Below are positions 62,565-64,000 of a DNA stretch of 64,000 bases, piece by piece (position 1 is the first letter of the stretch; each line of letters starts with the position of its first letter). Origin of the DNA: an uncultured Gammaproteobacteria bacterium. Its GTDB lineage: Bacteria; Pseudomonadota; Gammaproteobacteria; UBA6429; Thiohalophilaceae. Both the position numbers and the translations under genes were made by a program. The notes under the pieces were generated by a model. The model ran no database searches, had not been told where the DNA came from, and saw only the letters and a list, made by a program, of their open reading frames with translations. The stretch spans positions 62,001 to 126,000 of the forward strand of contig CAJYAN010000005.1 of NCBI GenBank assembly GCA_913064945.1, written 5' to 3'.

Positions 62565-62907
62565 TGGTGGGCCCGGTAGGACTTGAACCTACGACCAAGG
62601 GATTCACGTAGTCTTGATATTTCTATCAAGCGCGGACTATATCATCACCCACAACACCAAAATTTTCTGGCTTGTTTGGGCGCGGGACGCTCTAGCCTGT
62701 GATTAAGGACATTTTGATTTAGTTAAAAATCAGTCCCCAGGTAGTCTCTGCACCTTTCGAAGGTATACCTTCGACTTGGCTCAGGATTGCCATCGGTTAA
62801 TTAAAACCGGAAGGTTTCCCTGAGTTCATCCCGTTCATTTCATATCTTTCAATATGAACGCACCATTTTGATGAGTCCCCTGCTCTAACCAACTGAGCTA
62901 CAGGCCC
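62565..62907 (-). tRNA. tRNA-Ile2 (CAU) split by a group I intron
   Basis: Exon 1 is 62871-62907, from GGGCCTGTAGCTC to the anticodon loop CTCAT. Exon 2 is 62565-62604, AATCCCTTGGTC to an encoded CCA. Joined they make a 77-base tRNA with seven acceptor pairs, a GGGGA/TCCCT anticodon stem and loop C-T-CAT-A-A. The acceptor stem and TTGGTC variable region fit tRNA-Ile2, whose C34 is changed to lysidine, rather than tRNA-Met. It lies just downstream of rpoD. Confidence 0.93.
62605..62870 (-). other. Group I intron (IC3-like) in the tRNA-Ile2 anticodon loop
   Basis: 266 bases with no reading frame. P1: exon CAU plus intron CA pair with UGGUG across an AAA loop, placing U.G at the 5' splice site. 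P2 forms from CGTTCAT and ATGAACG. A P4-like AATCCTGAGCCAAG and R element GTGCAGAGACTA follow. GACUA (62742-62746) pairs with UAGUC (62635-62639) as P7. P9 is CTTGATA-GAAA-TATCAAG. The last intron base is G. These are the core features of tRNA group I introns as in the Azoarcus tRNA-Ile. Confidence 0.92.
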
Positions 62908-62942: not shown

Positions 62943-62985
62943 CTAGGAAAACTAAGACGCAAAGCATATCGTTGCTTTGCGCCTC
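62943..62985 (-). terminator. Terminator-like hairpin after rpoD
   Basis: CGCAAAGCA pairs with TGCTTTGCG across a six-base loop on the minus strand, followed by TTAGTTTTCC. It separates rpoD from the tRNA gene. Confidence 0.7.
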
Positions 62986-62998
62986 TTGCAACTGATGG

Positions 62999-64000
62999 TT
63001 ATTCTATATCGAGAAAACTGCGTAATTGATCAGAACGACTTGGATGACGCAGCTTGCGCAGGGCCTTGGCTTCGATCTGACGAATACGCTCACGGGTGAC
63101 GTCGAACTGTTTGCCGACTTCTTCCAGGGTATGGTCGGTATTCATATCGATACCGAAACGCATGCGTAGTACCTTGGCTTCACGTGCAGTCAAACCTTCC
63201 AGCACATCCGTCGTGGCTTCTTTGAGACCGAAAATAGTCGCGGATTCGATTGGTGCGGTGACATTGGTATCTTCAATAAAGTCACCCAGGTGTGAGTCTT
63301 CATCGTCACCAATCGGCGTTTCCATGGAGATGGGTTCCTTGGCGATCTTCAGTACCTTGCGGATCTTGTCTTCGGGCATTTCCATGCGCTCGGCCAGTTC
63401 TTCCGGCGTGGCCTCGCGACCCATTTCCTGCAACATCTGCCGTGAAATACGGTTCAGCTTGTTGATGGTTTCGATCATGTGCACCGGGATACGGATGGTG
63501 CGGGCCTGATCGGCAATGGAGCGGGTAATGGCCTGACGAATCCACCACGTCGCATAGGTCGAGAATTTGTAACCACGACGGTATTCAAACTTGTCGACGG
63601 CCTTCATCAAACCGATATTGCCTTCCTGAATCAAATCCAGAAACTGCAGGCCACGGTTGGTGTATTTTTTGGCGATGGAAATGACCAGACGCAGATTGGC
63701 CTCGATCATTTCCTTTTTGGCACGACGTGCCTTGGCTTCACCGATGGACATCTTGCGATTGATATCTTTGATTTCACCAATGGACAGACCGCAGTCCTGG
63801 GTAATAATGTGCAGCTTTTGTTGTGCGCGCAGGATCTCTTCACGATGCTGTTCCAGCACTGCGGAATAGTTTTCACCCGCTTGAATATGTTTGTCCAGCC
63901 AGCTTAGATCGGTTTCATTATCCGGAAAGGAGGTAATGAAATCCTTACGTGGCATGTGTGCCTTGTTGACACAGAAATCCATAATAATACGCTCATAACT
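62999..64000 (-). CDS. rpoD: Primary sigma factor RpoD (3' part)
   Basis: The C-terminal half of sigma-70; the frame runs off the window end without a stop. [20 protein letters not shown] and [20 protein letters not shown] (region 2), the [20 protein letters not shown] region 2.4, region 3 with [20 protein letters not shown], and region 4 with [20 protein letters not shown] are nearly identical to E. coli. An ATG at 63982 is internal, not the start. Sequence ends [11 protein letters not shown]. Confidence 0.97.

Follow-up and report, generated by a model that had tools for sequence, protein, structure and literature searches.

The window, as we call the whole stretch of 64,000 nucleotides analysed here, carries near its end a tRNA-Ile2(CAU) gene on the minus strand that lies downstream of rpoD and whose anticodon loop is interrupted by a group I intron. 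Read in the order exon 1, intron, exon 2, the minus strand consists of GGGCCTGTAGCTCAGTTGGTTAGAGCAGGGGACTCAT, 266 nt of intron and AATCCCTTGGTCGTAGGTTCAAGTCCTACCGGGCCCACCA. The features of the locus are as follows:

62999-63982, minus strand: rpoD (the 3' part inside the window), the upstream neighbour, which most relatives share
62954-62985, minus strand: terminator-like hairpin in the interval between rpoD and the tRNA gene (13 pairs and a T tract; 0.7 expected by chance)
62871-62907, minus strand: 5' exon of tRNA-Ile2(CAU), 37 nt, nucleotides 1-36, terminating in C34 A35 U36 (placed as an exact string and by intronless relatives with the same tRNA)
62605-62870, minus strand: group I intron, 266 nt, beginning after U36 and with G as its last base (RF00028, 91.4 bits)
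62565-62604, minus strand: 3' exon of tRNA-Ile2, from A37 on, with CCA encoded (exact string)

The initial annotation had placed a 266-nt intron after T36 in the anticodon loop of this gene, and its coordinates proved exact. The Rfam group I covariance model bears out the class as well: RF00028 matches 62613-62883 on the minus strand over the full model length with 91.4 bits (gathering threshold 50; E 4e-22), and a search of the 3.2-Mb genome returned this intron as its single match (E 4.8e-24). The exons had also been said to join into a perfect tRNA; joined, they fold as a CAU tRNA and are base-for-base identical to the intronless tRNA-Ile2 genes of three relatives in the same family (G031, G026 and G002; loci L077, L078 and L083). 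These intronless genes are the strongest check on the predicted boundaries, since they are exactly the tRNA that splicing would be expected to yield.

With introns disallowed, ARAGORN called no tRNA in the window; with introns allowed, it found a 266-nt intron at the locus in a register off by one and called the gene Gln (ctg). We rejected the Gln(CUG) identity, as splice sites at U36 and the terminal G give a CAU tRNA that exists without an intron in relatives. Plain tRNA finders thus overlook the intron-bearing gene, and genomes that carry it can seem devoid of tRNA-Ile2. No open reading frame of 90 aa or more spans the intron, whose 266 nt leave no room for an endonuclease gene, and the homing endonuclease that marks a mobile group I intron is absent from it. 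No sigma-70 site emerged from a scan with the promoter consensus, a result that is uninformative as to the absence of a promoter.

A second split tRNA gene lies on contig C19 of the same genome (L280:1501-2267), where tRNA-Arg(UCU) is interrupted after U34 by a 690-nt intron. It contains a broken PD-(D/E)XK endonuclease gene (PF11645 in two pieces, in different frames, E 3e-13 and 4.5e-15), and the Rfam group I model did not detect this intron even at E 1.

Fold of the intron and its known relatives

Helices P1, P2, P3, P4, P5, P6, P6a, P7, P8, P9 and a P9.0-like helix were drawn on the window sequence and scored on an alignment of 50 homologues. From the 5' splice site onward they are:

62871-62873, minus strand: exon strand of P1, CAU (the anticodon), with U36 at the 5' splice site; C-G, A-U and U.G pairs in 50 of 50
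62861-62863, minus strand: intron strand of P1, GUG (the internal guide), pairing with CAU
62839-62858, minus strand: P2 with a GAAA loop; 8 of 8 pairs changed on both sides, 96% paired
62827-62833, minus strand: 5' strand of P3; 7 pairs, 99.7% paired
62752-62823, minus strand: P4-P6 domain (P4, P5, P6, P6a); P4, P6 and P6a 100% paired, covariation at 7 of 7 pairs of P6a
62742-62746, minus strand: 5' strand of P7, GACUA; 5 pairs, invariant
62696-62741, minus strand: two extra helices (P7.1/P7.2-like) between the 5' strand of P7 and the 3' strand of P3; 100% paired, 48 cells with two-sided changes in the inner helix
62683-62689, minus strand: 3' strand of P3 (alignment pairing count)
62647-62681, minus strand: P8; 98.5% paired
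62635-62639, minus strand: 3' strand of P7, UAGUC (alignment pairing count)
62606-62633, minus strand: P9.0-like pairs (62631-62633 with 62606-62608) around P9 (62613-62630, GAAA loop); 100% and 94% paired, with two-sided changes
62605, minus strand: terminal G (omega G); G in 50 of 50 aligned sequences

P1 with its U.G pair, P7, the GAAA-capped P9 and the terminal G, all recognized in the initial annotation, are present, and every defined pair of P1, P3, P4, P6, P7, P8 and P9 in the window is standard. In the alignment of 50 homologues, pairing is standard in 93.8% of cells and falls to 30-48% once the partners are displaced by 1-3 columns; 428 cells have changes on both sides, compared with 133 after shuffling and no more than 118 after displacement. 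P3, P4, P6, P7 and P8 are paired in 98.5-100% of cells, so that the pseudoknotted P3/P7 core is found throughout the alignment; P5, in the form drawn on the window, is not conserved in its distal part (34% paired). No variation is seen in P1, P7 or the outer extra helix, and next to none in much of P3 and P4; for all of these pairs, covariation therefore speaks neither for nor against. A G likewise ends all 156 introns that we extracted, by a pattern that itself demanded a G at that place. In the anticodon stem, pair 28-42 has one partner in each exon and is GC in 38, UA in 10 and AU in 2 of the 50 homologues, and this covariation indicates that the two exons are constrained to function as one stem.

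The closest known counterpart by host tRNA is the group I intron of Azoarcus pre-tRNA-Ile(CAU), an IC3 intron that is also small, free of open reading frames, inserted after the anticodon and guided by a CAU/GUG pairing; it is about 205 nt long, against 266 nt in the window. To our knowledge it is described without the two helices that the window intron has between the 5' strand of P7 and the 3' strand of P3. Rfam holds one group I family, so the RF00028 match gives no subgroup, and these extra helices counsel care over an assignment to IC3.

An insert at this place occurs in introns of other tRNAs too. Group I introns lie after U36 of tRNA-Thr(UGU) at four loci (L215, L216, L218 and L221) and of tRNA-Lys(CUU) at one (L010), with a core and a P7-P3 insert like those of the window intron; their guides, GCA and GAG, match their own anticodons where the window has GUG, and they fall in separate tree clades. 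The tRNA-Leu(UAA) introns of cyanobacteria and plastids, found also in the window's family and its class (L015-L019, L022, L023 and others), are anticodon-loop introns of a different tRNA, and the one example read (L015) lacks the P7.1/P7.2-like helices.

Two further kinds of split gene were seen. In L245 the interruption of a CAU tRNA falls between U33 and C34, not at the site used in the window, and seven tmRNA genes (L020, L024, L260, L262, L263, L270 and L272) are split near the T loop by a group I intron, a form already known (PMC11915505).

Splicing and the reading of AUA

How the split gene would be expressed can be inferred from the known chemistry of group I introns and of TilS. The transcribed intron would fold so that anticodon CAU and internal guide GUG form P1, with U36.G marking the 5' splice site; a guanosine bound in P7 would attack after U36, and the freed U36 would attack after the terminal G, joining U36 to A37 and re-forming the anticodon loop. 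TilS would meet the loop that it requires to convert C34 to lysidine in the joined tRNA only, so that splicing should precede modification and the reading of AUA would depend on it.

The rest of the genome is consistent with such a dependence. A census of its tRNAs (RF00005 plus retrieved loci) gave 36 besides the split gene. A second intact tRNA-Ile(CAU) gene was not found in the assembly: two of the 36 have a CAU anticodon, one being elongator Met and the other initiator Met, and no Ile(UAU) tRNA is among them. The body of the split tRNA differs from both Met tRNAs and is of the Ile2 type, with C4-G69 and C5-G68, which we take to be TilS determinants. TilS is encoded in the genome (189 bits), and AUA is in regular use, making up 134 of the 1081 Ile codons in 51 long open reading frames of the window and occurring in 45 of the 51. 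The intron-bearing gene, present in single copy, is the only known source of an AUA reader in the assembly. With a sole Ile2 gene, no UAU tRNA, TilS present and AUA in use, splicing looks obligatory.

The tRNA matches of this genome likewise lack Ile(GAU) and Ala(UGC), whose genes commonly sit in rRNA operons; the assembly is therefore probably gapped, presumably at those operons, and it is unlikely that a gap hides a second Ile2 gene.

One could suppose instead that the intron has decayed and no longer splices, that the tRNA is a pseudogene and that another tRNA reads AUA. Decayed relatives do exist: in two genomes (G036, locus L279, and G058, locus L259) the old Ile2 gene below rpoD keeps just the 3' portion of the intron together with the 3' exon. 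The window intron, by contrast, matches the full-length model with all core pairs intact, its exons are identical to functional-looking intronless genes, and the assembly yielded no further Ile2 or Ile(UAU) gene to take over; we give decay hardly any credence here. The promoter region is the same in G036 and G058 and is followed there by another, intact CAU tRNA, a replacement that would itself support the need for an AUA reader. A truncated copy of another kind is found in G037, where an extra piece of Ile2 intron lacking its 5' part, with the 3' exon, follows unrelated sequence (L025) and a full copy lies elsewhere in the genome (L006).

Occurrence across the Gammaproteobacteria

By pattern search, 13 of 40 genomes of the window's GTDB family have an intron-bearing Ile2 gene and many of the others an intronless one. 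In a sample of the class the intron was present in at least 23 of 369 genomes, a lower bound because five candidates were scored per genome. The junction pattern, applied to the named genome collection, gave at least 119 loci, of which at least 118 are real Ile2 introns; a match in Frankiaceae (L191) was dropped as chance, its flank not being tRNA. Carriers among the matches listed include Dyella, Lysobacter, Rhodanobacter, Luteimonas, Pseudoxanthomonas, Woeseiaceae, Granulosicoccus and marine clades, as well as four Verrucomicrobia MAGs (L109, L163, L186 and L209). A phylum-level pattern search of 398 genomes for short Ile2 introns gave no match. The extracted set comprises 156 records of the full gene, among which 136 different introns occur, 225-334 nt long.

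The neighbourhood is conserved too. Of 116 locus records with both rpoD and the tRNA gene (a few of which cover one locus twice), 110 have the two on the same strand and 91 within 600 nt, at a median distance of 202 nt; across the class the Ile2 gene usually lies just below rpoD.

The initial annotation had considered such an intron unusual in a gammaproteobacterium, a view that these counts do not support (at least 118 loci, and at least 23 of 369 class genomes): the intron is common across the gammaproteobacteria at the same site and is not a rare recent arrival. A 2014 review placed bacterial tRNA group I introns only in cyanobacteria and in alpha- and betaproteobacteria (PMC4033280). In Acidovorax and Burkholderia, both Betaproteobacteria, tRNA-Ile2 group I introns that plain tRNA finders miss have been described (PMC8450103); by description they resemble the window's in tRNA, in intron class and in being overlooked, in betaproteobacterial hosts. 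In a partial coverage of the literature we found no report of a gammaproteobacterial Ile2 intron, which is weak evidence of novelty. The kind is already known, from Azoarcus, Acidovorax and Burkholderia, and its spread is wider than the literature examined reports.

Descent of the intron

Intron distances follow those of the rpoD protein (Mantel Spearman rho 0.48; the best of 500 permutations reached 0.13). In a quick tree of modest support, six host groups require 7 changes (minimum 5, shuffled mean 32.2) and the window intron groups with those of its own family. The gammaproteobacterial Ile2 introns are united in a single clade (97/93) that is separate from the Thr(UGU), Lys(CUU) and Verrucomicrobia introns; the last (MAG binning as deposited) make up a distant clade of their own and so are not a recent copy of the gammaproteobacterial ones.

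Lateral transfer, which had been suggested at first, gains no support here, as the rpoD-tRNA-Ile2 locus is conserved, the distances track rpoD and the clade of gammaproteobacterial introns follows host groups. A recent lateral arrival in the window's own lineage could draw on the patchy presence of the intron within the family and on the other kinds of intron at other tRNA sites in the class, which show that such elements can spread. We nevertheless think it improbable, given the nesting of the window intron within its family, the correlation with rpoD and a site and neighbourhood that are constant across the class.

When presence and absence are mapped on the family's rpoD tree of 26 tips, at least 10 changes are needed, a high turnover for an element passed on by vertical descent alone. 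In genus g14, orthologous Ile2 genes with and without the intron have identical exons and a conserved promoter-proximal flank; in at least one close pair, G018 and G001, which differ in intron presence, the tRNA exons are not identical either, and there the entire tRNA gene may have been replaced.

We favor a history in which the intron was mostly inherited together with its locus, with frequent loss and perhaps regain by recombination. Transfer of the whole locus also fits the congruence with rpoD, since rpoD is linked to the tRNA gene. A stricter form would have a single insertion in an early gammaproteobacterium followed by vertical descent only and many losses. The single clade of gammaproteobacterial Ile2 introns, apart from the Thr, Lys and Verrucomicrobia ones, and the conserved locus both favor it; regain by recombination, however, is compatible with the linked rpoD, the distribution rests on at least 118 loci among the matches listed, and the tree left out the betaproteobacterial Ile2 introns (PMC8450103). 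We would put this stricter history slightly below an even chance. For inheritance mainly with the locus, taken together with the evidence on structure and decoding, our confidence is very high: the gene would hold a self-splicing group I intron on which the reading of AUA depends, a gammaproteobacterial intron without an endonuclease gene that would be passed on mainly with rpoD-tRNA-Ile2 and be frequently lost or regained.

A wider proposal is one that we hold tentatively, leaning a little against it as a whole: that one old ribozyme lineage in the gammaproteobacteria, lacking an endonuclease, ties AUA decoding to self-splicing at rpoD-tRNA-Ile2, that it has been precisely lost time and again, with a replacement tRNA now and then coming to the rescue, and that related ribozymes with the P7.1/P7.2-like module were re-aimed to Thr(UGU) and Lys(CUU) by a change of the guide triplet.

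An essential decoding function would be tied to RNA catalysis in many gammaproteobacteria, among them the cultured genera Dyella, Lysobacter, Rhodanobacter and Luteimonas. These cultured carriers make splicing directly testable, and close species with and without the intron make its gain, its loss and the cost of splicing measurable.
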